Source: a virus | Direction: 5' to 3' (one strand) | Virus record (IMG/VR): IMGVR_UViG_3300042876_000278 | Span: 1-45,417 of that record | Length of the DNA: 45,417 nucleotides | In this document: piece after piece, positions 10,718-34,564 of the stretch | Numbering within the stretch: the first letter of the stretch is position 1 | How the letters are laid out: the number at the start of each line of letters is the position of its first letter | The notes under the pieces: generated by a model | The model's input: the letters and a program-made list of their open reading frames with translations, nothing else | Databases searched by the model: none | Told to the model about the DNA's origin: nothing | Translations under genes and position numbers: made by a program

Positions 10718-11088
10718 GACCAAAGGCCACATTAAACCTTCCCGACAAATGGGAGGACGCGATACTCGACATCTACCGCGAAGGCGGATCGGACGTTGAA
10801 GTAAAGGCGTGGCTTTTCGAGAAAAGGGGCTCATTCTCAAACGATTTGTGGGATCGTTGGCTCAAAGAAGAACCAAAGTTTTCGGAAACCATAAAAATAG
10901 GAAAGCTGCTTTCTGAAGCCTGGTGGACCAAAAACGGGCGCGAATGCCTGAAGAATCCCAGGTTCAACTATACCGGATGGTACATGAACATGAAGAACCG
11001 TTTCGGGTGGCGCGACAAGCAGGAGGTCCAGCACAGTATCACCGAAGGCCAACACTTCAAGATTGGTGACACCGTCATCCAGTTCTAA
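10714..11088 (+). CDS. terS: Terminase small subunit
   Basis: 124 residues. An HTH-type N-terminus (DKWEDAILDIYREGGSDVEV, then FEKRGSFSNDLWDRWLKEEP) is followed by the segment typical of Bacteroidetes phage small terminases: SEAWWTKNGRECLKNPRFN then YTGWYMNMKNRFGWRDKQEV. A short beta C-terminus (FKIGDTVIQF) would contact the large subunit. It recognises phage DNA and brings it to the packaging motor. Directly followed, with a 26-base overlap, by the large subunit. Confidence 0.8.
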   Translation: MRPKATLNLPDKWEDAILDIYREGGSDVEVKAWLFEKRGSFSNDLWDRWLKEEPKFSETIKIGKLLSEAWWTKNGRECLKNPRFNYTGWYMNMKNRFGWRDKQEVQHSITEGQHFKIGDTVIQF

Positions 11089-12373
11089 CGTCATTTTTGA
11101 GCCCTACCCGAAACAGCTAGAGTTTATCGAAGCTGTTTTCTCCGGGAAATATTCGTTCCTGTGCTACGGCGGGGCAATGGGCGGAGGTAAGTCCTACGTC
11201 TGCCTAGCGATCGCTATCCTACTGGCCAAAGTCTACCCCGGCTCTATTTGGTGCGTGATTCGCGAATCGCTCCCCACCCTGAAAAAGACCTCCCTGGCCA
11301 CGTTCATGAAGGTCTGCCCCAAGCAGTTCATCGCCGGCTACAACCAACAGGACCAGACGGTAACTTTCACCAACGGGTCGAAAATGCTGTTCATGGCCGA
11401 GGACTACGCCAACGACAAGGATTTCGACCGGTTCAAGGGCTTGGAGGTATCGGGCTTCATCCTGGAACAGATCGAAGAACTCAACGAGGGCCTTTTGGAC
11501 GTTTGTTTCATCCGGGCCGGGCGTCATAAGCTGCCCAAGCAACCGCCGCCCCTGGTGATCGCCAACGTCAACCCCACGCTCATGTGGCCCAAGGCGAAGA
11601 TTTACGACGCCTACAATTCGGGCACCCTCCCCCCGGATTGGTTCTACCTGCCGGCCAAGATCACCGACAACCCTGCTTTGTCCACCGACAACGCCTACAT
11701 GGACCGGCTCAAGAACCTGGACGCGCTGACCTATCGGCGGCTGATCGACGGGGACTGGACGGCCTTCGCGGTGAAATCTCCGTTCCTGTACTCTTTCTCG
11801 ATTGCCAAGCACGAAATCGAGTCCTACGCCCCGAATCCAAACCTGCCGATTATCATCTCGTTCGACTTCAACAAGGACCCCATGACGTGTCTTGTCGGGC
11901 AATCCCTGGACCTGCGGCATCTGTGCATTTTTGACGAACTCAAGATCGCCAACGGGTCCACCCCGGAACTATGCGAAATGATCGTGGCCAAATACCCGCG
12001 CTGGCTGGGTCAGATTTACGTCACCGGGGACGCTTCAGGTCATTCACGCTCCCCCCTGGTACGCGGGGGGGTGAACCACTACATCATCATCAAAAAGGCC
12101 CTGGGGATAAAGGACGGGCAGTTTTGGGTCCGCAAGCAGAATTTAAGCCATATAAACTCGCGGGTCCTTTGCAATAGTGTCCTGCAAAATGCTAATTTTA
12201 CTATTACCAAAAACTGCAAGGAAACGGTGGCTGACTGTGTATATGCCTCGGTGGACGAGGAGGGGGAACTGATTAAGACCGTGAAGGAAGGCCGCCACTT
12301 TTTCGACAACGTCAGGTATATGATCGACGCCAAGTTCCCGGATTTCATCACCAAGCCGCAGAAATACCAATGA
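11063..12373 (+). CDS. terL: Terminase large subunit (packaging ATPase/nuclease)
   Basis: 436 residues, normal for the family. N-terminal ATPase: an adenine-binding region (FEPYPKQLEFI), Walker A GGAMGGGKS at 36-44, and Walker B with catalytic Glu at about 129-138 (GFILEQIEEL). C-terminal RNase H-fold nuclease: IISFDFNKDPMTCLVG (about 262-277) supplies the first aspartate, YVTGDASGHSRS (about 318-329) a second, and an acidic residue near NVRYMIDAKFPDF a third. It pumps and cuts DNA into the prohead at the portal. Start chosen to overlap terS. The glycan island follows with no terminator between. Confidence 0.92.
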   Translation: MVTPSSSSNVIFEPYPKQLEFIEAVFSGKYSFLCYGGAMGGGKSYVCLAIAILLAKVYPGSIWCVIRESLPTLKKTSLATFMKVCPKQFIAGYNQQDQTVTFTNGSKMLFMAEDYANDKDFDRFKGLEVSGFILEQIEELNEGLLDVCFIRAGRHKLPKQPPPLVIANVNPTLMWPKAKIYDAYNSGTLPPDWFYLPAKITDNPALSTDNAYMDRLKNLDALTYRRLIDGDWTAFAVKSPFLYSFSIAKHEIESYAPNPNLPIIISFDFNKDPMTCLVGQSLDLRHLCIFDELKIANGSTPELCEMIVAKYPRWLGQIYVTGDASGHSRSPLVRGGVNHYIIIKKALGIKDGQFWVRKQNLSHINSRVLCNSVLQNANFTITKNCKETVADCVYASVDEEGELIKTVKEGRHFFDNVRYMIDAKFPDFITKPQKYQ

Positions 12374-12540
12374 TTTCAATAGTTGAAAACCGCGACTGCA
12401 TGGAGGCTATGAGGGAGTTCCCTGATAAATACTTTGAGCTGGCCTTTGACTTCTGGGGTTACGAGTTGGACAAGGAGTATTTTGATGCAAGCGTAAAGAG
12501 ATTTGAACAACACAAGGCACAATTAAACCTATTCAAATGA
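12370..12540 (+). pseudogene. Internally deleted DNA methyltransferase remnant, 56 aa
   Basis: The frame begins MISIVENRDCMEAMREFPDK then YFELAF, which is the opening of phage DNA adenine methyltransferases ('I.n.Dcme.m...pD.yfDLa..DPPY'). Without a break it continues DFWGYELDKEYFDASVKRFE and ends LNLFK, which is the C-terminal block of the same family ('G.ElD.eYf..a..R......q..LF'). The catalytic DPPY segment and about 100 or more residues between are missing, so it cannot be an active methyltransferase. Both ends keep 4-base ATGA overlaps with terminase and the next gene. This points to an in-frame deletion rather than random decay. Confidence 0.75.
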
Positions 12541-12725
12541 ACCAACTCCCCCTTTTCGGTTTCCGCGACATGAAGCCCAAGGCCAGGGTCCCCATCAGTC
12601 GGGAGCGGATCGAGGAGGCAAAGAAACTGTTTCAAGGCGGGGACATTAAAGGATCGGTTGAGGTGTTGCGGGAAGTTCGGTACAAGTTGGAAGCCTACTG
12701 CGCGAGGATAAACTCAAAGCCATGA
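12537..12725 (+). CDS. Small helical protein, 62 aa
   Basis: MNQLPLFGFRDMKPKARVPI followed by a basic helix pair (SRERIEEAKKLFQGGDIKGS, EVLREVRYKLEAYC). The second half looks like a helical hairpin of TPR type. Overlaps both neighbours by 4 bases. It is the first intact gene of the island after the methyltransferase remnant. Function unknown. Confidence 0.55.
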   Translation: MNQLPLFGFRDMKPKARVPISRERIEEAKKLFQGGDIKGSVEVLREVRYKLEAYCARINSKP

Positions 12726-13237
12726 ACATCATCGCCTGCGGCCCAACGGGCTCAACATGGAACGGGGAAGGTGGCTCCATCGGAGTCAACGACTGCGAGA
12801 AGTTCGGCAATAAGGTCGCCTCGCTCGTTGTGGTAAACTCCGACTTTGAACTGCCGCGTCTTCAAGTCATCAAGAACACCGTTGCCCCTGCGGGGTTTTA
12901 CTCCCAATTGACCTATTGGTGCAATCAGCCCAACTACAAGCCACTGCCCCCCATGAAACGATTTAAGGGACGGGAGAACAAGACCGAAACCGGCTGGGTG
13001 TATTCTTCGCGGACTTCGCCGTTTATCGCTATCTCCCTGGCTGCCTACTTGGGGCACAATGAAATCGTCCTCTACGGGGTAGATTTCGAGGCTCACCCGA
13101 TAGTTTCCGGGGAGCGGTTGGTGCGGGAAGTTGACGCCTACAAAAAGCTGATTGACTTCTTGCATATTCGGGGCGTTAATGTATTTTTGTCAGCCGACTA
13201 CGGGGCGTTAAAAGGATTTGTACCTGTGAAAAAGTGA
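12722..13237 (+). CDS. MAF/DUF115- or GT42-like protein
   Basis: 171 residues. 'NIIACGPTGSTWNGEGGSIG' with 'VND' is a glycine-rich nucleotide-sugar loop followed by an N-D pair, as at the start of DUF115/MAF and sialyltransferase GT42-type folds. Near residue 95, 'SSRTSPFIAISLAAYLGHNE' then IVLYGVDFEAHP matches their 'sG.fA...A..lGy..iyl.GiDf' block. It would be a CMP- or other nucleotide-sugar-dependent transferase. The call is by pattern; the exact family is unresolved. It is the first glycan-type gene of the island. Confidence 0.5.
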   Translation: MNIIACGPTGSTWNGEGGSIGVNDCEKFGNKVASLVVVNSDFELPRLQVIKNTVAPAGFYSQLTYWCNQPNYKPLPPMKRFKGRENKTETGWVYSSRTSPFIAISLAAYLGHNEIVLYGVDFEAHPIVSGERLVREVDAYKKLIDFLHIRGVNVFLSADYGALKGFVPVKK

Positions 13238-13860
13238 AATTCTGCACCATCACACCTACGCGGGGGGACCGTCCGCAATTCCTTGAGTTCTGCAAGCATC
13301 AGCTTTCGCGGATGCACGTCAAGCCGGATCACTCGTATTTCATCGACTACCCGCCAACCGGCACCGACTTCGACCTTGTCGCGCGCGTGCGCAAGGGGAT
13401 AGAGCAAGCCAAGGCCGACGGCTTCGAGCGGTGTTTCATCGTGGAGGACGATGACCATTACCCGGCAGACTATTTCCTCATCATGCCGGAAGCTGATTTC
13501 TACGGCGACGACCATACGATCTACTACCACCTGGGCAACCGGACTTGGCAGGAGTGGAGTCACCCGCGCCGGGCATCGCTGTTTACAACCGGGTTCAAAA
13601 TATCGTCCCTCAACGACTTCCAATGGATTCACGACAATGAGCGGTTCCTGGATATCAGCCTTTGGAACTACGCGGTAAAGGAGAAGAAACCCGTATTCTG
13701 GCGGCAATCCAAGGCGGTAGGCATCAAGCACGGGATCGGGCTCTGCGGTGGCAGGGGCCACGTTCAGCGCAACAAATACCAGGATCAGGACCTTTCATGG
13801 CTCAAGGCCCACGTTGATACCGAGGCTTTCACGTTTTACTCAACCCTGAAACTGAAATGA
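13234..13860 (+). CDS. Glycosyltransferase-like protein (GT-A, family 2 type)
   Basis: 208 residues, GTG start inside a GTGA overlap with the previous stop. Opening FCTITPTRGDRPQFLEFCKH is the GT2 'P..gR...l...' start. CFIVEDDDHYPADYF at about 69-82 gives the DxD metal/nucleotide-sugar motif. The C-terminal part includes WRQSKAVGIKHGIGLCGGRG. It is short compared with full GT2 enzymes (about 250-300 residues), with only the catalytic domain. Presumably soluble and cytoplasmic; acceptor unknown. Confidence 0.65.
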   Translation: MKFCTITPTRGDRPQFLEFCKHQLSRMHVKPDHSYFIDYPPTGTDFDLVARVRKGIEQAKADGFERCFIVEDDDHYPADYFLIMPEADFYGDDHTIYYHLGNRTWQEWSHPRRASLFTTGFKISSLNDFQWIHDNERFLDISLWNYAVKEKKPVFWRQSKAVGIKHGIGLCGGRGHVQRNKYQDQDLSWLKAHVDTEAFTFYSTLKLK

Positions 13861-13881
13861 GGCCCCTCACCGAAAAAAGAA

Positions 13882-13963
13882 ATGAAGTCCCTCCCTCCTG
13901 GGAAGTGGTACGTCGAAAAGACCGAGCGCGGGGTCTACGTGCCAAAACCTAAACCCAAAATGT
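13882..13963 (+). other. Open segment before the membrane-protein gene, protein-like but without its own stop
   Basis: An ATG at 13882 starts MKSLPPGKWYVEKTERGVYV then PKPKPK. This looks like real protein, but the frame then runs into the next gene in the wrong frame and shows no stop until 14223. A frameshift would fuse it to the membrane protein at 13964. It could be a decayed or frameshifted N-terminus; a 31-codon frame from 13857 is an alternative. Confidence 0.3.
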
Positions 13964-14245
13964 ATGGTAACCTTCCTGCTTCTGCTATTGATCGCCTCAA
14001 TGTGGACAATGGGCGTGTCCGCTCTGTTTCAGGAGGACATGATCCTGGAAAAGCTGGGACAGTGGCAAGACGAAAACATTCCGCTTTGGCTCAACAAGCC
14101 TCTTTGGCGTTGTCCGCCTTGTATGGCTTCTTTTCACGGGTCGGTAATTTACTTGCTCGTCTTGGTGGGCGAATACGGTCTTTGGCTTTGGGTGCCGTTC
14201 GTCATTTGTCTGGCCGGGCTTAACTATGTCATTGTGAACCGATGA
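13964..14245 (+). CDS. Small membrane protein with CPPC motif, 93 aa
   Basis: Three hydrophobic stretches: residues 2-20 (VTFLLLLLIASMWTMGVSAL), about 58-75 (SVIYLLVLVGEYGLWLW) and the C-terminus (VPFVICLAGLNYVIV). Between them is LWRCPPCMASFHG, a W-x-C-x-x-C motif followed by an aromatic segment. It resembles DUF1360-type small membrane proteins that carry a 'C..C....G' centre. It could anchor or assist the glycan enzymes at the inner membrane. It lies between two glycosyltransferase genes and overlaps the next by 4 bases. Confidence 0.6.
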   Translation: MVTFLLLLLIASMWTMGVSALFQEDMILEKLGQWQDENIPLWLNKPLWRCPPCMASFHGSVIYLLVLVGEYGLWLWVPFVICLAGLNYVIVNR

Positions 14246-14841
14246 CACTGCTTTCCCTCCTCATCCCCACCACTCCGGACCGGGCCGAATCATTGGACCG
14301 CTTGGTTCAGTCGTTGACCAAGCAAATCCTACACGCCGGGGCAATGGATCAGGTCAAAATCCACACCCTCGAAACCCCGAAATGGGACAAGGCCAAACCC
14401 ATGCGTGAGCATTCTATCGGCTACAAGAGGAACCGCCTATTGCAGGCTGCCGAGGGTCTTTACGTGGCTTTCATCGACTCCGACGATCGGGTGGCATTGG
14501 ACTACGTTGAATTGTTACTTGAAGGTATTGACAAGGGGCCCGATTGCTGTTCGCTCAACGGGATCATCACCGAGGACGGCAAAAACCCCTTGCGGTTCCA
14601 GCACTCGATCCGGCACAATGCCTATGTAACCTGCCCAGATGCCGAGGAAATCCGATACCTCCGCTATCCGAACCACCTGAATTGCATCCGCGCCGACATC
14701 GCCAAGCGATTCGAGTTCCCCGAAACCATGCACGGGGAAGATACCGACTGGGCTACCCAACTCCACCGCTCGCGCCTGCTCAAGATCGAGTACGACATAC
14801 CCGAAATCATCTACTACTACGATTACATTTCCAACAAATGA
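14242..14841 (+). CDS. Glycosyltransferase family 2-like protein
   Basis: 199 residues. Opens MTLLSLLIPTTPDRAESLDR (GT2 start). YKRNRLLQAAEGLYVAFIDS then DD at about 60-82 is the classic 'G.ar..G.yi.flDaDD' with DxD. HGEDTDWATQLHRS near 159-172 gives the second acidic 'ED' of GT2 enzymes that binds the acceptor base. It is a nearly minimal GT-A domain. Product and acceptor unknown; overlaps neighbours by 4 bases on both sides. Confidence 0.8.
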   Translation: MTLLSLLIPTTPDRAESLDRLVQSLTKQILHAGAMDQVKIHTLETPKWDKAKPMREHSIGYKRNRLLQAAEGLYVAFIDSDDRVALDYVELLLEGIDKGPDCCSLNGIITEDGKNPLRFQHSIRHNAYVTCPDAEEIRYLRYPNHLNCIRADIAKRFEFPETMHGEDTDWATQLHRSRLLKIEYDIPEIIYYYDYISNK

Positions 14842-14939
14842 AAAAACTACTCATCATTGCCTTTTTCGTTGCGGCTTATCCCTGGTGGATACTGCCAATT
14901 GCCCGGTTCATTCTCAGGTTCTTTTGCCCAGTCTGCTGA
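14838..14939 (+). CDS. Tiny hydrophobic protein, 33 aa
   Basis: MKKLLIIAFFVAAYPWWILP followed by IARFILRFFCPVC. Almost entirely hydrophobic, with a lysine pair at the start and one possible membrane span or hairpin. Stop-start overlaps on both sides (ATGA before, TGATG after) support a real gene. Function unknown; it may be a membrane tether for the glycan enzymes. Confidence 0.55.
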   Translation: MKKLLIIAFFVAAYPWWILPIARFILRFFCPVC

Positions 14940-15805
14940 TGAATCGCGCGATCTCTTATAGCCTCTTTGGCTACAACCGCAAGACCCCGGACAACTGTTT
15001 CGAGTTTGCCACTTATATGCGTGGCCTACACATCGCGATCCGCTTCAACCGCATCCTGTACCCCGGCTGGATCACGGTGGTAAATGTGGACCATTCCACC
15101 TATAACAGCGAGTACAAGGAGATATTCGACTGGCACGTCCACACCGGCCACCTGCGGGTCAACCTATGCCCGGACAACGAGCCGCTTTGCCTGGCGATGC
15201 TGTGGCGCATGAAAACCGTTTTCGATTATGCCCATCCCCAATGGAATTGGTCCCACGTCATCATGCGTGACCTGGATTCGATCGCCACCTTCCGCGAGGT
15301 TCAAATGGTCCAGGAGTGGGTCAACGAGGACAAGACCATCCACTGCATCACCGACTCGGTTTCCCACAATATCCCCATGATGGGGGGAATGATCGGGATC
15401 AGGCCGGCGCATTTCGCCTCGAAAACCGGCATCCATTCATGGGATCAACTCCTGGCCTTCGACAAATCGATCGACTTCTCGGTCAAGGGATCAGACCAAA
15501 CCTTCCTGAACCGGGCCATTTACCCCAAATGCGCGGATTCTTCGACCGAACACTTCATAAAGGGCATGGTCCACAACCTCCCGGAGGGCAACGGGCGGCA
15601 CTACCGCGTGAATGAGGACCTGCCCATCGGGGTAGACGAACGCTTCAAGGAAACGAACCTGCTTTGCGGCCATGTGGGGGCGGCTGGGTACTACGAGGCC
15701 CCGACGATGAAATTCCTGCATTATGCTGATCCTTATCGGGAGGAATATGTAGATTTGGAAAGACGCAAGCAGTTTCAAAGGCTCTTTTACTGGGCTCACG
15801 GATGA
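14939..15805 (+). CDS. Glycosyltransferase-like protein with DxD (RDLDS), 288 aa
   Basis: Start chosen at the TGATG overlap. Residues 108-114 (MRDLDSI) hold the DxD motif after a hydrophobic strand (WSHVIM). SHNIPMMGGMIGIRPAHFAS then DQLLAFDKS and GSDQTFLNRAIYPK (about 183-196) follow the 'mgGm.g.r......gsDQ.fl..iyp' pattern of capsule-type transferases related to GT8/GT32. The N-terminus (SYSLFGYNRKTPDNCFEFAT) is typical of that group too. It probably adds a sugar from a nucleotide-sugar donor; donor and acceptor unknown. Confidence 0.7.
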   Translation: MNRAISYSLFGYNRKTPDNCFEFATYMRGLHIAIRFNRILYPGWITVVNVDHSTYNSEYKEIFDWHVHTGHLRVNLCPDNEPLCLAMLWRMKTVFDYAHPQWNWSHVIMRDLDSIATFREVQMVQEWVNEDKTIHCITDSVSHNIPMMGGMIGIRPAHFASKTGIHSWDQLLAFDKSIDFSVKGSDQTFLNRAIYPKCADSSTEHFIKGMVHNLPEGNGRHYRVNEDLPIGVDERFKETNLLCGHVGAAGYYEAPTMKFLHYADPYREEYVDLERRKQFQRLFYWAHG

Positions 15806-16314
15806 TACACGAGGCCGAACATTGGAGGACTACCGACAGCAAGGGGCGCACGATGCCCTGGTACACGCGCGAGTGCTGCAAGTGGCTTGATGGAAATGCT
15901 TCGCTTGGTACGTTCAAAGGGCTTCGCGTTTGGGAATGGGGCGGCGGCCTTTCGACGCTTTGGTATCGGGCCGTCGGGGCCGTTGTTTCCGGTGTTGACT
16001 CAAGCCAGGACTGGGCTAATTTGTCCGGGCTTTTGTACGTTGGAGAAAAGCAATCATACATTTCATCGATTTCCACTTTTGGCCCTTTCGACCTGATCTG
16101 TATCGACGGAGACTACCGCGACGAGTGTTTCGTATATGCCGTCAATAACCTGGCCATTGACGGTACGATCATAATCGACAATTGGAAGCAGGCAAGCGCG
16201 GGGTGGCCCGATTGGCCGGATACCGAGCGACTGATCCGTGAACTGAATTTGAAAGTCACCGAGTACCCACAGGCCGGGCATCCGGATTGGGTAACCATAA
16301 CCGTACAGCGATGA
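15802..16314 (+). CDS. Class I SAM-dependent methyltransferase
   Basis: 170 residues. LRVWEWGGGLSTLWY at 41-55 is the SAM-binding motif I (E-x-G-G-G-x-S/T). VSGVDSSQDW supplies the acidic residue of motif II, and GPFDLICIDGDYRDECF at 94-110 the post-strand-4 'D.I.iDg.yR' typical of Methyltransf_24-like enzymes. TIIIDNWKQA follows. Possibly methylates a sugar made by the neighbouring transferases. Overlaps neighbours by 4 bases. Confidence 0.75.
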   Translation: MIHEAEHWRTTDSKGRTMPWYTRECCKWLDGNASLGTFKGLRVWEWGGGLSTLWYRAVGAVVSGVDSSQDWANLSGLLYVGEKQSYISSISTFGPFDLICIDGDYRDECFVYAVNNLAIDGTIIIDNWKQASAGWPDWPDTERLIRELNLKVTEYPQAGHPDWVTITVQR

Positions 16315-16559
16315 TGAAAGACCCCAAAGTCCAGATTCCCCTAAACATGACCAAGCAAGTCGTTTGCAAAGGTTGTGGGGGTCAATTGTTCAACGTCATG
16401 CACGCGGTAAGGATTTACCCCGGCGGGATTCTCACCGGAGGGGTTCCGGCCACCATGACCGAGCAGGTATTCGTCTGCGGGGCCTGTGGCGTTCCGGTGG
16501 ACATCGCCGATTATATCACTACCGCACCACGCGACGAAATGAAAATCATCAAGGCATGA
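16311..16559 (+). CDS. Zinc-ribbon protein, 82 aa
   Basis: Start at the ATG at 16311 overlapping the previous stop. Two CxxC pairs, VCKGCGG and VCGACGVPV, are 36 residues apart and form a zinc ribbon. Between them are short strands with YPGGILTGGVP. Probably structural or binds a nucleic acid or enzyme partner. Embedded between a methyltransferase and a glycosyltransferase, so a role in the glycan complex is possible but unproven. Confidence 0.6.
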   Translation: MMKDPKVQIPLNMTKQVVCKGCGGQLFNVMHAVRIYPGGILTGGVPATMTEQVFVCGACGVPVDIADYITTAPRDEMKIIKA

Positions 16560-17359
16560 AAAAGTTTGTCATCCTTTCCACAAACTGGAATCCGGATTAT
16601 TTGTACTATACCCCCCTGGTCGTTTGGGCCTGGCGCAAGTTTGGATGGACTCCGGTGGTGTTCTACGAGGGTGAATTGACGGAGGCCGCAAAGTTCACTT
16701 TCAAGATTGCCGGAATTACCCCTATTCTTTTGAATCCCCAGGATGGCTACCGGTCGGACACCATCACGCAAGTATCGCGGCTTTACGGGGCCTGTGTTGT
16801 CCAAGAGGGCTACCTCATGACTTCCGACATTGACATGATCCCGCTTTCGGATTACTGGAAGTTTGATCCTTCTGACATCACCATCTGGGGCCATGACCTG
16901 ACCGACTTCACCCATTACCCGATTTGCTACATCGGCATGACCGCCGAGCGGTGGCGCGAGGTGATGGGCCTGTCCTCCTCGGATTTCAATTCCCTGATCC
17001 GGCGCGACCTTGACACACTCCCGCAAGCCAAAGACCCGGATTTTTACAAGTACTGGTTTTCAGATCAGGACCTAATCACCACACGGATTGATTCGACCGA
17101 GTTCCAAAAGAAGCACATCCACCGGGGGCAATATCCGAACGGGTTTGCCGTTGGCCGGGTAGATCGCGGCGACTGGAAACTCCAACACGCCCAATTCATC
17201 GACTGCCACGCCTTACGGGACGTTTACAAGCACTCTGACACGGGGGTCATGAACATTTCACGGACCATGCGAATGCTAGACCGTATATGGCCGGAGGAAT
17301 CATTCCAATGGCTCATAGACTTCACGCGGGAATACCAAAAACTGGCAAACAATGGATAA
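16556..17359 (+). CDS. Glycosyltransferase-like protein with SDIDM motif, 267 aa
   Basis: Start at the ATG at 16556 (MKKFVILSTNWNPDYLYYTP). A GT-A core: WTPVVFYEGE strand, SRLYGACVVQEGYLMTSDID at about 75-94 with the DxD motif, then MIPLSDYWK. WFSDQDLITTRI near 170 resembles the acceptor-side D-Q. Sequence otherwise diverges from well-known families, so it is placed as a capsule-type transferase by motif. Co-translated with its neighbours. Confidence 0.65.
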   Translation: MKKFVILSTNWNPDYLYYTPLVVWAWRKFGWTPVVFYEGELTEAAKFTFKIAGITPILLNPQDGYRSDTITQVSRLYGACVVQEGYLMTSDIDMIPLSDYWKFDPSDITIWGHDLTDFTHYPICYIGMTAERWREVMGLSSSDFNSLIRRDLDTLPQAKDPDFYKYWFSDQDLITTRIDSTEFQKKHIHRGQYPNGFAVGRVDRGDWKLQHAQFIDCHALRDVYKHSDTGVMNISRTMRMLDRIWPEESFQWLIDFTREYQKLANNG

Positions 17360-17996
17360 CCTCGTTTTTTGCTCGGTAGCCTTTGGCAAGGAGTACGTCC
17401 AGCAGCAGGCACGCCTTCGGGAGTCGATCCGGAAGTTTTACCCCCAGGCGAATTTGCTGTTTTACACCGAAGAACTACCCCCCGGCTCCAGGCCTTTCCT
17501 TGACTCACTGTATGGGTTCAAGCCACACCTGGCCCAGGAGGCACGGAAACGGGGCTACAAGCGCATAATCCTACTTGACCCTGCCATGATACTCACCGGG
17601 AAGATCGACGGCGTATACGACCGCTATTCCGTTGTAGCGGCCAAGGACACCTCGGTCCTTTGGAATGTCACCTCCCACCGGGCGGCGGACTACTTCGGGA
17701 CTACGCGGGTAGAAATTAAAAATAAGGGCTGGCACCTGGTTGGGGGGAGTTTCTACTACTTCAACCTTGACACGGCTACGGCTGGGACCGTTCTGGATAG
17801 GTGGCTAGCGGCTGAGAAAGCCGGCATTTTCGGCAGTCAGCAGGAGGCGGCAAGCGAACAACTTCAGGGGCACCGGTACGACGAGACCATCATGGCCCTT
17901 TGTATGTATCAGGCAGGAATTGAACCGCAAGACCCGGACCAAATCGGGTATTGCATAAGCGAGAATAGCGTATGGCAGAAGCGACATTTCAAGTAA
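17352..17996 (+). CDS. Glycosyltransferase-like protein with altered DxD, 214 aa
   Basis: MDNLVFCSVAFGKEYVQQQA, then RLRESIRKFYPQANLLFYTE and KRGYKRIILLDPAMILTGKI at about 67-86. In GT8-type enzymes this strand is followed by D-x-D; here the position reads D-P-A, so the second aspartate is missing. SFYYFNLDTATAG and HRYDETIMALCMYQ resemble the later acceptor blocks. It may be a degenerate enzyme or use another metal ligand. Overlaps the previous gene by 8 bases. Confidence 0.55.
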   Translation: MDNLVFCSVAFGKEYVQQQARLRESIRKFYPQANLLFYTEELPPGSRPFLDSLYGFKPHLAQEARKRGYKRIILLDPAMILTGKIDGVYDRYSVVAAKDTSVLWNVTSHRAADYFGTTRVEIKNKGWHLVGGSFYYFNLDTATAGTVLDRWLAAEKAGIFGSQQEAASEQLQGHRYDETIMALCMYQAGIEPQDPDQIGYCISENSVWQKRHFK

Positions 17997-18133
17997 TCAT
18001 TCCGGGCTGGATCACCCGCATTGGCGATAAACTGGTAATTTGTACCAGTGGTCACGCATACCCTCCCGGCGTGCTGATTATCCCAAATGACAAAAGCTAC
18101 AAGCGTTTCATCAAAAACACATGGTATGATTGA
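17972..18133 (+). CDS. Small protein inside the island, 53 aa
   Basis: An ATG 25 bases before the stop of the previous gene opens MAEATFQVIIPGWITRIGDK then LVICTSGHAYPPGVLIIPND and ends TWYD. Beta-rich and compact; no motif known. Its stop is within 8 bases of the next gene start. Long overlaps like this are rarer here, so this call is moderate. Confidence 0.5.
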   Translation: MAEATFQVIIPGWITRIGDKLVICTSGHAYPPGVLIIPNDKSYKRFIKNTWYD

Positions 18134-18689
18134 AGTCATTGCAGAGCATTCCGTCGATTTATCCCTGCTCCCGGAGAAGGCAAACGTCCTGGACCTTGGA
18201 TGTCGTGGCTTTGCTTTTACCCACGCTTTACGCGAACGCGGCCACCACGTCGTGCCCATCGACATCGACCGACTCCACGACGGGCAAGCCTATTACCAGT
18301 GCGCTATCTCGGATTTTGACGGGCGCGTGGCTATCCTCAAATCATCCGACCCGCAGGCTACCCGAATCGATCCCGACCGCGAGGGAACGGTGCCATGCTA
18401 TACGCTTGCGACCCTTTCCGGCAATTTCCTCAACAAAGGCCAGATTTGGGACCTCATCAAGATGGACATCGAGGGGGCGGAGTACCAGGTCATCATGAGC
18501 ATGGAAAAAGCCTGGGCCAAACAACTCAGCGTAGAATTTCATTGCCACACCGGACATATCAACCAGGCGCAGATGAAGCAGATGGAGAACAAACTCAAAA
18601 ACCTTGGGTATAAGTTCGCCTCTCATTCACAAAGCCAGCAACACGGGGCGGGCTGGAATTATTGGGACTCCCTTTTCATCCTGAAATGA
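18126..18689 (+). CDS. FkbM-type SAM methyltransferase
   Basis: Start placed at the ATG at 18126; upstream codons overlap the previous small gene. VLDLGCRGFAFTHALRERGH at 21-40 is motif I, VVPIDIDR motif II. QIWDLIKMDIEGAEYQVIMS at about 106-125 is the hallmark FkbM block ('lliDvEG.E..vl'). SVEFHCHTGHINQAQ follows. FkbM enzymes O-methylate sugars or similar acceptors, so this fits a glycan-modifying pathway. Confidence 0.75.
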   Translation: MIEVIAEHSVDLSLLPEKANVLDLGCRGFAFTHALRERGHHVVPIDIDRLHDGQAYYQCAISDFDGRVAILKSSDPQATRIDPDREGTVPCYTLATLSGNFLNKGQIWDLIKMDIEGAEYQVIMSMEKAWAKQLSVEFHCHTGHINQAQMKQMENKLKNLGYKFASHSQSQQHGAGWNYWDSLFILK

Positions 18690-19405
18690 TCCACGCTTTC
18701 AACTTTTGCGGGCAACGCGACCGGCAGCTTGGCGACCTTATGGAAACCACCTTGCGAAAATACGCAGGGAAGTTCCTGGGGTCATTCACGCAGCGCGACA
18801 TGGACGCGGCAGGATACGGCAACGGGGCAGGATGGGAGGCGGCGATGCTGAAACTCGACGTCATGCGTTGGGTAGTAAACAAGAAGAAAGTCAAGGATTC
18901 GGATTGGGTTCTTTCCATCGACTCGGATGTCGTTTTCTGTTCTTCGGAGATATTCAGCTACATCAGGATGCTTGAACTTCTCACCTATGAAAAGTCGGGG
19001 ATTGTCGGGATCATGCAGGTTGGCCCATTGGCTAAGTGCAAGATGGGCGACCTTTACAACTTCTCAGGCTGTTCAATCTACCTGCGCGGGAACATTGCCA
19101 GGGCAATCACTTCGCTTTCCCCTGAACGACTGACCGAAGTTCGCGGGGAGTTCAAGGAGTTCGTGATCTGCGAAAACGAGGATGTGGTAATCAGTTACCT
19201 TGCCCAATCGGTAGGGGCCGCTCCGCGCGCGCTACCAAATCATTTGTTTCATTCAGACTACGGTTTCGAGCATGACATAAAAGCCGGGACGCTTTGCTCG
19301 TTCTATCATTTGAACTACGGCGGCATGACCCGATTCATGGACACTGAGGTAACCGGTAAATGGGACATCCCGAAAGTATTGAGGCGTAAAAAGGTGATTT
19401 TATGA
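18686..19405 (+). CDS. Glycosyltransferase-like protein with DSD motif, 239 aa
   Basis: Start at 18686 in an ATGA overlap. Reads MIHAFNFCGQRDRQLGDLME; the catalytic-type segment SDWVLSIDSDVVFCSSE at about 72-88 carries D-S-D after a hydrophobic strand. YNFSGCSIYLRGNIARAITS and VICENEDVVISYLAQSVG near 165-182 give an 'ENEDV' acidic block, as in family 2-like transferases. It ends in a basic helix. Acceptor unknown. Confidence 0.65.
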   Translation: MIHAFNFCGQRDRQLGDLMETTLRKYAGKFLGSFTQRDMDAAGYGNGAGWEAAMLKLDVMRWVVNKKKVKDSDWVLSIDSDVVFCSSEIFSYIRMLELLTYEKSGIVGIMQVGPLAKCKMGDLYNFSGCSIYLRGNIARAITSLSPERLTEVRGEFKEFVICENEDVVISYLAQSVGAAPRALPNHLFHSDYGFEHDIKAGTLCSFYHLNYGGMTRFMDTEVTGKWDIPKVLRRKKVIL

Positions 19406-19881
19406 TTGTTGGACGTGGTGACGTGGCAAAAGTGTTAATAGACCGACCCGGCGCGCTGTTCTTTGCCGCCGGGGTGTCAAATAGTTCATGCACTGATCGG
19501 GACCTTTTCCGATTGGAGAAGCACCTGCTTTTGGAGCAACCCAAAGACCTGTGCCTTTTCTATTTCGGGACGATTTCCATGTACTACAAGTCAACGCCGT
19601 ACACGATCCACAAGGCAAACATGGAACTGCTAATCAAATCCAATTGGGTCAATTACAACATCGTCCGGCTGGGCAACATCTCTTGGGGGAGCAATCCAAA
19701 CACCTTTTTGAACTACATTCGTGGGAAAAAGGAACGCGGGGAGCCTTACGAGGTTCTGGATGAATACCGGTATATGATCGACGAGGACCAATTGAACCTG
19801 ATCTGTTCGTCCCTCCCGCTTCATGGGCAGAACGAAATAAACGTGTTCGGCAGGATGGCAAAAGTAAAGGACCTGATATGA
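19402..19881 (+). CDS. Short SDR / NAD-dependent epimerase-like protein, 159 aa
   Basis: N-terminal GRGDVAKVLI (4-13) is a reduced Rossmann loop. LFFAAGVSNSS (19-29) resembles the SDR 'flAaG.....s' strand. CLFYFGTISMYYKSTPYTIH then K at 51-71 contains the SDR Ser/Thr plus Y-x-x-x-K catalytic pair (Y67-x3-K71). NIVRLGNISWG is the conserved post-catalytic strand. At 159 residues it is about half the length of normal extended SDRs and lacks much of the cofactor and substrate domain. It could epimerise or dehydrate a nucleotide sugar, or be a degenerate regulator. Confidence 0.65.
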   Translation: MIVGRGDVAKVLIDRPGALFFAAGVSNSSCTDRDLFRLEKHLLLEQPKDLCLFYFGTISMYYKSTPYTIHKANMELLIKSNWVNYNIVRLGNISWGSNPNTFLNYIRGKKERGEPYEVLDEYRYMIDEDQLNLICSSLPLHGQNEINVFGRMAKVKDLI

Positions 19882-20390
19882 AAAAAGAGGACTTTCTCAA
19901 AGATGTTGCCAATTGGGACAATCACCGAGTATTCCTTTGGCAAGCCCTTGAAGTAACCACCGGCGAAGTTATCGAGATGGGCATGGGCGACGGGTCCACG
20001 CCATTCCTTCACGAGTATTGCAAGGATTCCAGGCGGAAGCTATTCAGTTACGAGGGTAGTTTGCAGTGGGCCATGAAATACCAGGAGTTGATAACCGACG
20101 GCCACCGCGTTCTGCACGTCCATAATTGGGATGATGTAAGCCTTCGCCATCCATCCCCGGACGTTGTTTTGATCGACCACGCCCCCGGCGAACGGCGCAA
20201 GGTAGACATTGAGCGGTTTGCCAATTCGGCCAAAATTATCGTTTGCCACGATACCGAGCCGGCGGCGGATCACGGGTATCAAATGCGGGCCATCCTTGGC
20301 ACGTTCAAGTACCGGAAGGACTATCAAACAATAGGGGCATGGTCTACGGTGGTTTCCAATTTTATCGACGTCACAAAGTTTGAAATATGA
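19878..20390 (+). CDS. Class I SAM methyltransferase-like protein, 170 aa
   Basis: GEVIEMGMGDGSTPFLHEYC at 29-48 is motif I with an E-x-G-x-G-x-S pattern. DVVLIDHAPGERRKVDIERF near 94-113 is the post-strand-4 block. KIIVCHDTEPAADHGYQM supplies 'vvHDt', as in Methyltransf_24-like proteins. It is the third methyltransferase of the island. Substrate unknown; may methylate or act on an amino sugar. Overlaps both neighbours. Confidence 0.65.
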   Translation: MKKEDFLKDVANWDNHRVFLWQALEVTTGEVIEMGMGDGSTPFLHEYCKDSRRKLFSYEGSLQWAMKYQELITDGHRVLHVHNWDDVSLRHPSPDVVLIDHAPGERRKVDIERFANSAKIIVCHDTEPAADHGYQMRAILGTFKYRKDYQTIGAWSTVVSNFIDVTKFEI

Positions 20391-21034
20391 AAATTTCCCT
20401 CCTTCACCCCAGCCGGGGCCGACCAGTCAAGGCGGTAGTCACAGCCAGAAAATGGATTTCACAGGCAGGCGTTGAACTTGAACACGTTTTCAGTCTCGAT
20501 GAATCCGACTACACACACAAGTCGTATCAGCAGATTGACAAACTCCTGGTCAATCCAAACGATTGCGTTGTCCAGGCAACCAACCACGCGGCGGCAGCAT
20601 CGACCGGGGACGTGCTGATTTACTTGTCGGACGATTTCGACTGCTTCCCGAACTGGGGCCGCGTCATTACTGAAATCTGCTCCCGCTATACGGGGGAGTA
20701 TATGGTCAAGGTAGATGATGGCCTGCAACGCTTTGAAAATACCGTTCTTACCATCCCGATCATGTCGCGAAAATTGTACGAGCGGCTGGGGTACTTCTTC
20801 CATCCCGACTACAAATCGATGTGGGTAGACGTTGACCTGTACTACACTTGCGCACGTATGCGCCCGCGTGACGGGGAGGGTCAAATCCTCAAATTTCACA
20901 AGGAAATCAGGTTTCAGCACAACCACTACTCGAACGGGAAAACCAAGAAAGATGATACGTACACCCGATCCGACGGATTCTGGAACCAGGGCAAGGAAGT
21001 ACTGGCGCGAAGGAGGGCCGAGCATTTCCGTTGA
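20387..21034 (+). CDS. Glycosyltransferase family 2-like protein, 215 aa
   Basis: KISLLHPSRGRPVKAVVTAR is a clear GT2-like opening ('P.rgR...'). NHAAAASTGDVLIYLSDDFD (65-84) is the 'N.g...a.Gd.l..lddD' block. Later KSMWVDVDLYYTCARMRP carries the acidic acceptor motif. FHKEIRFQHNHYSNGKTKKD follows. It resembles phage proteins of the same size found beside other glycosyltransferases. Probably soluble. Confidence 0.75.
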   Translation: MKISLLHPSRGRPVKAVVTARKWISQAGVELEHVFSLDESDYTHKSYQQIDKLLVNPNDCVVQATNHAAAASTGDVLIYLSDDFDCFPNWGRVITEICSRYTGEYMVKVDDGLQRFENTVLTIPIMSRKLYERLGYFFHPDYKSMWVDVDLYYTCARMRPRDGEGQILKFHKEIRFQHNHYSNGKTKKDDTYTRSDGFWNQGKEVLARRRAEHFR

Positions 21035-21798
21035 AACTCGCGGCAATATATAACGCTTGGGGCGACTGCCAGGACCTTCTCCGGAAGTCCATTGTGAACA
21101 TTTGCCCGGTGGTTGACCTGGTGATCGTCATTTACTCCACCCGCAGCAATCGGGGCGAGGAAATGGAGTTTTTACAGGAAGTCAATGATCCAAAGGTGGT
21201 CTATGTGAACGTGGAGCCTATCCGCCACTTCTCCCCGGCGCAGAATGAAACCATGAAGCGCAACGCCGGCCTTGATTACGCGCGCGCAAACCTTTGCACC
21301 CACTTCCTGGTCATGGATTCCGATGAGTTCTACCTGTGCGCCGACGTTGAACTGGAGAAGCAGCGCATTGAACGCGAAAACCTGAACGGATTGGTTTGCG
21401 GGCTACGGGTCTACGTCAAAAAGCCGACCCTATGGTGCGAAGATCATACCCTTGTGCCGTTCATCCAGAAATTGACCCCGGAGGTGAGCCTTGGCGATTA
21501 TCGTCATTATCCATTCACATACGATAAAGACCGCCGGTGTCACATAGACCCCACTCGTCGCCCGTCACACGTTAGCCGGATCGGTTGGAGTGATGTAGTA
21601 ATGCACCATTTTTCCTATGTTCGCAAGGATATGGATTTGAAGATAAGAAATTCAACGGCCAACCTGGAACGCTCGCGCGATGTGATTGCCAAGGAAATGA
21701 TAGAAGCCCGTCCGGGGTGGATGTCGTTATTGTATCACCGGGAACTGAAGGAGTGCGAAGATATTTTCAAAATCAAAGGGGCCGGTCCACCCAATTGA
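21031..21798 (+). CDS. Glycosyltransferase-like protein with DSD motif, 255 aa; last island gene
   Basis: TTG start in a TTGA overlap (TTG codon directly followed by AAA CTC). Reads KLAAIYNAWGDCQDLLRKSI; NETMKRNAGLDYARANLCTH then FLVMDSDEFY at about 93-101 gives the D-x-D with a following Glu/Phe/Tyr, as in GT2-like 'hflv.DaDEf' proteins. VVMHHFSYVRKDMDLKIRNS is another shared block. The gene ends inside the GC-rich hairpin that closes the island. Confidence 0.7.
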   Translation: MKLAAIYNAWGDCQDLLRKSIVNICPVVDLVIVIYSTRSNRGEEMEFLQEVNDPKVVYVNVEPIRHFSPAQNETMKRNAGLDYARANLCTHFLVMDSDEFYLCADVELEKQRIERENLNGLVCGLRVYVKKPTLWCEDHTLVPFIQKLTPEVSLGDYRHYPFTYDKDRRCHIDPTRRPSHVSRIGWSDVVMHHFSYVRKDMDLKIRNSTANLERSRDVIAKEMIEARPGWMSLLYHRELKECEDIFKIKGAGPPN

Positions 21799-21808
21799 AA
21801 CCGGCCCC
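21778..21808 (+). terminator. GC-rich hairpin after the glycan island
   Basis: GGGGCCGGT (21778-21786) pairs perfectly with ACCGGCCCC (21800-21808) across a 13-base loop. The stem begins inside the last island gene and is followed by two GTTAACC repeats rather than a T-run. It could terminate or attenuate transcription before the tail genes, or protect the 3' end of the island mRNA. Confidence 0.6.
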
Positions 21809-21831
21809 CCGTTAACCGTTAACCATCCTTA

Positions 21832-22458
21832 ATGGAAGCGCAAAGCAAAGATATGAAAAACCCCACAAAAAAGCCAAAAAAGGTAATTTCCGACAAGGTA
21901 ATGAACCTTTACCACCCCAAAATTGCCAAGGACATCGAGTTTGCATTCGAGGCCGGCGGGGTGAAATACTACTGTTTCCGGGCCGATTCCGACGTTCGCT
22001 ACGGTAGGTATATCGTTTTGCAGGCTTTCCTCCAGGAGTACCACCTGCGCGTCGATTTGGACACGCTCAGGGCCAATATCAAGAAAATCAAAGGCTGGCT
22101 GAACCCCCCGGTCAACAAGGACGGGCAGGGCACCTTGCAGCTTGGGAAAGCCCTGGAATTGCTCGAAATCATGGAACAGAGGGCAAATATCGCTTTTGAG
22201 CCGGATACCGTGTACCGCCTGGCGTCGGTCCTGTACTTCGACGATACCGAGATTTTGAGCGGCTACGACAAGAAATACAACGAGGAGAAGATCGCCCGGT
22301 GGAAAGAAACCGAGACAGTAGATTTTTTTTTTCACAAACTGTTCAGAGAATCAACTCGCTTGATGGTTACATCCAGAGAAGATTTACTAAATTATTTGCG
22401 CCTCGTTCCCGCTCTAACAAAAGGGTGGAATACGATGGAAGGCATCCTCTCGCAGTGA
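21832..22458 (+). CDS. Tail assembly chaperone, first frame (gpG-like)
   Basis: 208 residues, helical and charged; the first gene after the island and two genes upstream of the tape measure protein, the usual place of gpG-type chaperones. The sequence contains no catalytic motif. It reaches a 10-T run at residues 164-167 (D-F-F-F), where a -1 shift would join it to a second open frame ending at 22607. This is the same gene architecture as lambda G/GT. A start at 21853 (MKNPTKKP) is also possible. Confidence 0.65.
   Translation: MEAQSKDMKNPTKKPKKVISDKVMNLYHPKIAKDIEFAFEAGGVKYYCFRADSDVRYGRYIVLQAFLQEYHLRVDLDTLRANIKKIKGWLNPPVNKDGQGTLQLGKALELLEIMEQRANIAFEPDTVYRLASVLYFDDTEILSGYDKKYNEEKIARWKETETVDFFFHKLFRESTRLMVTSREDLLNYLRLVPALTKGWNTMEGILSQ
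22323..22332 (+). promoter_or_regulatory. Candidate -1 programmed ribosomal frameshift site (T10)
   Basis: Ten consecutive T residues provide a slippery T-TTT-TTT. Slipping -1 leaves the 21832 frame and enters the open frame that continues to 22607, making a product of about 258 residues. Chaperone pairs in siphoviruses are classically expressed by such a shift. Confidence 0.6.
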
Positions 22459-22607
22459 TGCAGGACTACCTGGATGGGAGGTATGAGGAAGTCAAAATTC
22501 TCGCTAACTTTGACGTTGAAAAGGAACCCGCCTTTTACGAGATGTCCGTCTACGAGTTCTACTTCCATCTCTGGGTAAAGTCCAACAATGGCGAAAAAAA
22601 TAGTTAA
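22458..22607 (+). CDS. Tail assembly chaperone, second frame (T-like), also startable alone
   Basis: From the ATG at 22458 (TGATG overlap with the stop of the first chaperone): MQDYLDGRYEEVKILANFDV and FYEMSVYEFYFHLWVKSNNG. This is a short helical domain that overlaps the tape measure start by 20 bases. Its frame is open back through the 10-T run, so it may be made mainly as a -1 fusion to the upstream protein. Position and size match the second chaperone of siphoviral tail modules. Confidence 0.55.
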   Translation: MQDYLDGRYEEVKILANFDVEKEPAFYEMSVYEFYFHLWVKSNNGEKNS

Positions 22608-33652: not shown

Positions 33653-33779
33653 AGTCCTCTACAAATTTAAGTAATACCGTCTCGATTAAGTTCGTTGCGG
33701 TGCGGTTTTCTTTACTGGCAATGTACCTGACCTTAGCGATCAGGGATTCATTGAGCCTCATGGTGTGCATTTTTCTCAT
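33585..33779 (-). CDS. Ribbon-helix-helix DNA-binding protein, 64 aa
   Basis: Start at the ATG at 33779 (MRKMHTMRLNESLIAKVRYI). HTMRLNESLIAKVRYIASKE followed by NRTATNLIETVLLKFVEDYE is a textbook RHH: beta strand, helix, turn, helix. The C-terminal 20 residues overlap the next gene in another frame. Likely represses its own operon at the inverted repeat in the module's promoter spacer. Confidence 0.65.
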   Translation of the reverse strand: MRKMHTMRLNESLIAKVRYIASKENRTATNLIETVLLKFVEDYEKNNIIGTVGQDSQGRSSVSE

Positions 33780-34564
33780 GGCTGGGCGATTAGGTTCTTT
33801 GCCGTTTGAATGTTCCAGGGTTTGAGGTACGCCATCCACGCGCCTACTGAGGGTGCCCACCGGAAACCGTTCCGCTTCAACTGTGTGCGCTTCTCTTCGC
33901 TCGGCTTGCCGGGGAAGAACAATTGCACCCGGTTATCCTCCGGAGACACGACCAGCCGCACCCCGTTAACCTCTTCCTCACTGTGGGGGATAGATTCAAC
34001 CTTCTTGAGTTGGGCGATCCTCTGGGCGATCCGCTTCATGTTGGCGTTGTTGTTGGTCAGTTCATAGCGCGGGATTCCGGGGCCGCTAAAGGTTTCCGTT
34101 GACAGGAATTTTTGCGCCACCACTTCGCTCACCCCAAGGATGACCATTTTTTCAACTTTTTGATTGTCGGAGAGTTTTTTGGACTTGACGATCTTGTTCA
34201 CCGCCTTGAAAAGTTCCTGTTTCTTGGTCAGCTTTTCAAGTTTGGCCTGCAACAGTTCCAGGGCGTTAGGATTGTCCGAACTGATCGCCGTGTTGGATTC
34301 CATCGCTTCGGCCTTTTCGGCATAGTAGGCTGCCTTTTTATCGGCTTCGATACTGGCCCTCATGGCGTTGTCAATGCGCTCAATATCGCGGCGGTGCCGC
34401 TTCTCACTGTGGTGACCCACAAGGATTGGCTGGCCCATCGGGATCATACTACCGATTGCGGTAGCGCGTGTGAACGATGCTTTTGACAGGTCGGCGTTTT
34501 TCGCGGCCAGGCGTTCATAGGCTTCTTTCCGTGCCTCGCGTTTTTCTTCAAAGTTGCTTTTCAT
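33776..34564 (-). CDS. DUF3560-like protein, 262 aa
   Basis: Residues 1-80: EARKEAYERLAAKNADLSKA then SMIPMGQPILVGHHSEKRHR and RDIERIDNAMR match the DUF3560 core. A charged helical middle follows. The C-terminal part (VRLVVSPEDNRVQLFFPGKP then KRNGFRWAPSVGAWMAYLKP) is a separate beta domain seen in plasmid and phage proteins of this type. The family is abundant on plasmids and mobile elements; its role is not established. Overlaps the RHH gene by 4 bases. Confidence 0.7.
   Translation of the reverse strand: MKSNFEEKREARKEAYERLAAKNADLSKASFTRATAIGSMIPMGQPILVGHHSEKRHRRDIERIDNAMRASIEADKKAAYYAEKAEAMESNTAISSDNPNALELLQAKLEKLTKKQELFKAVNKIVKSKKLSDNQKVEKMVILGVSEVVAQKFLSTETFSGPGIPRYELTNNNANMKRIAQRIAQLKKVESIPHSEEEVNGVRLVVSPEDNRVQLFFPGKPSEEKRTQLKRNGFRWAPSVGAWMAYLKPWNIQTAKNLIAQP

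Follow-up and report, generated by a model that had tools for sequence, protein, structure and literature searches.

A glycosyltransferase-rich island between the terminase and tail genes of an uncultured siphophage and its possible role as an exchangeable virion-glycosylation locus

Mycobacteriophages such as Che8, Corndog and Myrna encode their own glycosyltransferases (GTs), and mycobacteriophage capsid and tail-tube proteins are glycosylated by these enzymes, according to the accounts of Freeman 2023 given in PMC12363180 and PMC12619734. In mycobacteriophage LittleE (gp15-gp21), the GT genes are embedded in the structural operon, with a four-GT cluster flanked by the genes for the major head protein and the head-tail connectors. 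We analyzed a comparable island of phage-encoded GTs in IMG/VR record IMGVR_UViG_3300042876_000278, a sequence of 45,417 bases classed as linear and possibly a fragment, the whole of which constitutes the window examined here. Similar to LittleE, the GT genes of the island lie within a structural operon, and gp15, which opens the LittleE cluster, is a homolog of island gene C. While the mycobacteriophages possess a few such genes, the island contains nine GT-like genes and three methyltransferases, and it further differs in its probable Bacteroidota hosts and in the exchange of cassettes behind two common genes. Its families A, B, F, K and M were unmatched by tblastn among 50,697 phage records, where D had four matches and C had 60, mostly in Mycobacterium and Gordonia phages. 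The virion target was demonstrated for the mycobacteriophages in the cited accounts, whereas for the island it is suggested by the genes.

Other described systems share individual features with the island. Chlorovirus PBCV-1, whose host is a eukaryotic alga, also encodes its own GTs; these lack an endoplasmic reticulum signal peptide, and the capsid is glycosylated outside the corresponding host pathway (PMC7019647). The MAF flagellin GTs act on flagellin in the cytoplasm before export, as described in PMC4065374. Gene A is predicted to share the fold of these enzymes and of the GT42 sialyltransferases, yet it is only 171 amino acids (aa) in length. Bacterial O-antigen and capsule loci are characterized by common flanks and swapped GT cores. 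The island differs from them in that no phosphoglycosyltransferase (PF02397, Bac_transf), Wzx-type flippase (PF01943, Polysacc_synt) or GtrA (PF04138) was found in any of the 16 island-bearing records, with positive controls for these searches. The island is an enlarged, exchangeable version of the known phage glycosylation clusters.

The island comprises a co-directional run of about 17 open reading frames (ORFs) at 12722-21798, between the terminase large subunit (TerL) and the tail-chaperone and tape-measure genes, and occupies approximately 9 kb of the 45 kb. A sequence-only reading of this DNA had proposed a glycan-synthesis island in the late structural region that is unusually large for a phage, and both gene content and position bear this out. 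The genes are ordered A, B, a 93-aa CxxC protein, C, a 33-aa ORF, D, E, a zinc-ribbon protein, F, G, a 53-aa ORF of doubtful status, H, I, J, K, L and M, of which A, B, C, D, F, G, I, L and M are GT-like and E, H and K are predicted S-adenosylmethionine (SAM) methyltransferases. The earlier reading had counted about eight GT-like proteins, one fewer than we found, and three of the nine (D, G and I) are candidates by motif. Its three methyltransferases, one of them FkbM-like, its zinc ribbon and its two small hydrophobic proteins were all recovered. The chain of genes had been described as unbroken; most junctions are indeed stop-start overlaps of 4 or 1 nucleotides (nt), and nearly all are overlaps of 1, 4 or 8 nt, but there is a single gap of 103 nt after gene B (13860-13964). 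Similarly, the island does not begin directly after the terminase, since two small ORFs (12370-12540 and 12537-12725) intervene. A strong terminal hairpin is present ahead of the tail chaperones as proposed, although it has no T-tract.

We assessed the GT-like proteins individually (Table 1). The AlphaFold2 model of A (pLDDT 93) had MAF (5mu5) and CstII (1ro7) as its top Foldseek matches, with E values of about 5e-4 and TMq values of 0.58-0.60, in agreement with the MAF/GT42-like assignment made from the sequence. CstII was also among weak PDB profile matches (E 0.026). Because A shares the predicted fold while its score against PF01973 (16.2 bits) falls below the cut-off of 34.6, it is filed as MAF/GT42-like and not as a family member. 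The model of F has a predicted GT-A fold, which matches KfiA, glycogenin and LgtC with Z scores of 11.8-12.8, and an acidic DxD motif whose D91 and D93 are invariant, so that both proteins submitted to the structure prediction suggested earlier gave GT-type folds. The F family was present in 73 contigs, and no Pfam, PHROG or PDB-sequence match to it was found. When all members of D and F were scanned with Pfam, no common family emerged, and both families were unmatched in Pfam and PHROG. Profile-profile comparison (hhalign) of families built from the relatives linked B to C (96%) and to M (91%), and C to the GT2 of an alternative cassette (93%). A search with a single B protein as query found one distant locus. 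PDB sequence profile searches with B, D, F and M yielded no convincing match. An hhalign match of 98% between D and F, spanning 72 columns at 3% identity, was given no weight. D, G and I are regarded as GT candidates only, by their conserved acidic motifs. Among the methyltransferases, E matched K (96%) and the methyltransferase of the alternative cassette (79%).

We then examined how the island is distributed among relatives, which were gathered via TerL, F and the tape measure and compared by tblastn; the contig counts that follow were made after removal of duplicates. At least four island genes were found in 45 contigs and at least six in 27, of which 15 also carried a related TerL. The order C-D-F-K was kept in 43 of 44 contigs. 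For TerL, relatives of 62-66% identity were found. Wherever the contig of a TerL relative held both genes, the island separated TerL from the tail chaperone. Island-less relatives, with which a comparison had been suggested, were also seen: in the distantly related L020-L023, the chaperone follows at approximately 1 kb from TerL, and no island is present (L020 was read in detail).

A second cassette occupies the same location in contigs L012, L017, L018 and L019, where A and B are followed by GT2_4, GT11 (80 bits), GT2, FkbM, methyltransferase and GT47 (73 bits) genes. Two short contigs whose TerL groups with that of the window, L005 and L007, showed one and two genes of this second cassette. 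Because the starred branches of the TerL tree require at least three changes of cassette label, the sequences indicate that enzyme cassettes are exchanged among phages with similar TerL. By gene neighborhood, the island also crosses siphophage and myophage (contractile-tailed) lineages, since L025, L027 and L134 carry it between a tail sheath gene and a terminase of another type (PHROG 15). L025 and L027 have the island order without A between these two genes, and in L134 the island is inverted relative to both. By analogy with bacteria and their surface antigens, phages may in this way exchange their sugar coats. It was noted that endonuclease-like ORFs adjoin or sit inside islands in L003 (10886-11377), L013 (5202-5768), L018 (3708-4088) and L019 (10896-11429); the L018 ORF is of the GIY-YIG type and the others are HNH-like by eye. 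Such ORFs could drive cassette exchange.

The reading that we consider probable, with somewhat better than even confidence, is that the island encodes a late cytosolic assembly line that uses host sugar nucleotides to decorate virion proteins with a methylated oligosaccharide, with its cassettes exchanged between phages. Virion protein glycosylation is the simplest reading because the enzymes are apparently soluble and lie within the structural block: no obvious transmembrane helix was seen in island proteins except for the two small hydrophobic ORFs, with one borderline stretch in M. As in other phage virion-glycosylation loci, the GTs are in or near structural genes, occupying the packaging/structural block in siphophages and the interval between TerL and tail sheath in the myophages checked. 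Host-supplied sugar nucleotides would serve as donors for up to nine phage GTs acting one after another, the first transfer possibly being made by A as a MAF/GT42-like protein O-glycosyltransferase. The acceptor would be a capsid, tail or fibre protein, and the sugars would then be capped by up to three methyltransferases. The resulting coat may alter how the particle adsorbs, how stable it is or how it is recognized, and the swapping of enzyme sets as cassettes would yield virion 'glycotypes'. We infer the catalytic activities, the virion target, the order of steps and the biological benefit from the genes and their setting. Expression may be coupled to packaging, judging from gene order; internal promoters had been reported as absent, and sigma-70-like sites within the island were indeed at chance (8 versus 7.2 expected) in a scan that does not cover Bacteroidota-type promoters.

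Several points weigh against virion glycosylation. No sugar-nucleotide synthesis gene was confirmed, so that host pools are needed; the likeness of A to MAF and CstII is at the level of the fold (TM about 0.6, 12-15% identity); and the assignment of D, G and I as GTs rests on motifs. The broader proposal, that siphophages and myophages trade complete glycan-building cassettes at a single packaging-tail slot, giving virions interchangeable coats of methylated oligosaccharide that unclassified GT families assemble (a 'glycotype' locus), is put forward tentatively, at a little under even confidence. As far as our literature search reached, virion glycosylation has been documented in few phages, with few genes in each. 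If the proposal is true, elaborate and diversifying sugar coats would be a widespread phage trait, raising the question of which agents select for them, such as host lectins or receptors, grazers or immune systems. The island also offers new small and apparently cytosolic predicted GTs, the D and F families among them.

The sequence-only reading had left open whether the virion or the host glycan is the target. An alternative is that the phage remodels the surface glycan of its host late in infection, for instance to block readsorption to debris or superinfection. This would be consistent with the GT2, GT11, GT47 and FkbM genes, which typify surface-polysaccharide loci, and with the two small hydrophobic proteins of the island. 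However, envelope glycan pathways require a flippase and an enzyme that initiates synthesis on a lipid carrier, and the island-bearing records gave no match to these or to GtrA, as described above. Lysogenic conversion is unlikely because an integrase was not found in 13 of the 16 records, the window record included. The larger of the two hydrophobic proteins is similar to a protein of a phage that lacks the island. The virion, with a MAF/GT42-like enzyme as the first gene, fits these observations best, and we consider host remodelling unlikely.

Clusters of phage GTs are reported to decorate modified bases (Pyle 2024, as cited in PMC12619734), and a C5-methyltransferase (PF00145) was found in two of the 16 records; the island could accordingly be viewed as a means of hypermodifying phage DNA with oligosaccharides. 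The remaining 14 records, including that of the window, gave no C5-methyltransferase match, and thymidylate-synthase-type hydroxymethylases (PF00303) were found in none of the 16. DNA hypermodification requires a base-modifying first step. A search for TET/JBP (PF12851) was also negative in all 16 records, but its control gave no signal and the result is uninformative. Because the island adjoins structural and not replication genes, and three methyltransferases with a MAF/GT42-like enzyme suit a protein-borne glycan better, this explanation is judged improbable. More doubtful still is the making or modification of a small molecule, or action on peptidoglycan or another host target: the methyltransferases and J could act on small molecules, but no synthetase or scaffold genes were seen, and the position and exchange pattern suit a surface antigen better. 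A chimeric assembly in which phage sequence was fused to a polysaccharide locus of a bacterium, conceivable for a single metagenomic record and named beforehand as what would overturn the island, was rejected as next to impossible, since the same genes recur at the same position across many independent contigs.

Table 1. Features of the glycosyltransferase-rich island and its flanks.
Feature	Position	Strand	Basis
TerL, left island flank	11063..12373	+	PHROG terminase families, E 1.7e-24
A, MAF/GT42-like GT, first gene, 171 aa, common to both cassettes	12722..13237	+	predicted fold
B, GT2-like GT, E-x-D-D motif, common to both cassettes	13234..13860	+	E71/D73/D74 invariant in alignment
93-aa membrane protein, CPPCMASFHG motif	13964..14245	+	sequence and hhalign
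C, GT2 GT	14242..14841	+	PF00535 30.8 bits (cut-off 23.3); PHROG 14775, E 2.3e-33
33-aa hydrophobic ORF	14838..14939	+	sequence; overlaps C by 4 nt and D by 1 nt
D, putative GT, RDxDS motif	14939..15805	+	R110/D111 invariant, D113 near-invariant (42-sequence alignment)
E, class-I SAM methyltransferase-like	15802..16314	+	E-x-G-x-G motif; hhalign
82-aa zinc-ribbon protein (CxxC...CxxC)	16311..16559	+	sequence
F, predicted GT-A-fold GT, unclassified family, MTGDIDM	16556..17359	+	AlphaFold2 pLDDT 97.1
G, GT8/glycogenin-like putative GT	17352..17996	+	weak PDB profile matches, nearly all glycogenin; D76 invariant
H, FkbM-type SAM methyltransferase	18087..18689	+	PF05050 45.6 bits (cut-off 22.7)
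I, putative GT-A GT, invariant DSDV	18686..19405	+	alignment; sub-threshold Galactosyl_T and ABO transferase matches
J, 159-aa protein, Y-x2-H-K motif	19402..19881	+	alignment
K, class-I SAM methyltransferase-like	19878..20390	+	E-x-G-x-G-x-G-S-T motif; hhalign to E 96%
L, GT2-like GT	20387..21034	+	PHROG 14945 glycosyltransferase, E 7e-18; PF00535 16.8 bits, below cut-off
M, GT2-like GT, DxDE	21031..21798	+	D96/D98/E99 invariant; hhalign to B 91%
Strong hairpin, right island edge, no T-tract	21778..21808	+	dG -23.9 for 21770-21835; z -3.5
Tail-chaperone-like overlapping ORF pair, right flank	21832..22607 (21832-22458, 22299-22607)	+	kept in relatives

Not all genes within the island appear to be glycan enzymes. 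The 93-aa CxxC protein belongs to the family of the pre-tail-chaperone protein in relatives (hhalign 99.9%), and because a related protein (95.8%) is encoded by the ORF after TerL in island-less L020, it is probably part of the phage backbone. An overlapping ORF at 13882-14223 was rejected in favor of this conserved gene and is probably no gene. Gene J had been taken for a short-chain dehydrogenase/reductase, an assignment that found no support: hhalign to an epimerase gave 0.3%, there was no PDB profile match, and its sole motif is Y-x2-H-K. Of the two small ORFs that follow TerL, the first (56 aa) resembles an internally deleted DNA methyltransferase in which the start and end motifs are joined and the middle is missing (phrog_67, E 2.7e-7).

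The window phage was characterized as well. Because of its terminase, tape-measure, portal and head-morphogenesis matches, together with the tail-chaperone-like pair and its T10 overlap, the sequence points to a siphophage. The best tape-measure matches include Bacteroides, Riemerella and Cellulophaga phages, among others, and Shine-Dalgarno-like motifs were seen at 5 of 36 starts, which is not above background (13.6%). Both observations fit a Bacteroidota host, which is therefore probable for this uncultured phage. A host search among genome contigs was uninformative, returning only distant relatives and a phage contig binned with Paceibacterota. This island-bearing contig of 51,399 bases (L108, JAGVCW010000004.1) is placed in a Candidatus Paceibacterota metagenome-assembled genome (GTDB); the binning is probably an artefact, and IMG/VR contig L006 has equal length and matches.

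The tape measure starts at 22588, directly downstream of the chaperone-like pair, and a run of ten T at 22323-22333 in the overlap of that pair could serve as a -1 slip site, reading T TTT TTT in frame. Elsewhere in the window, a Band_7/SPFH-domain protein is encoded on the minus strand at 633-1181 (62.9 bits), and a DUF3560 protein (139.8 bits) lies at 33776-34564, also on the minus strand and thus opposite to the structural region within which it is found.

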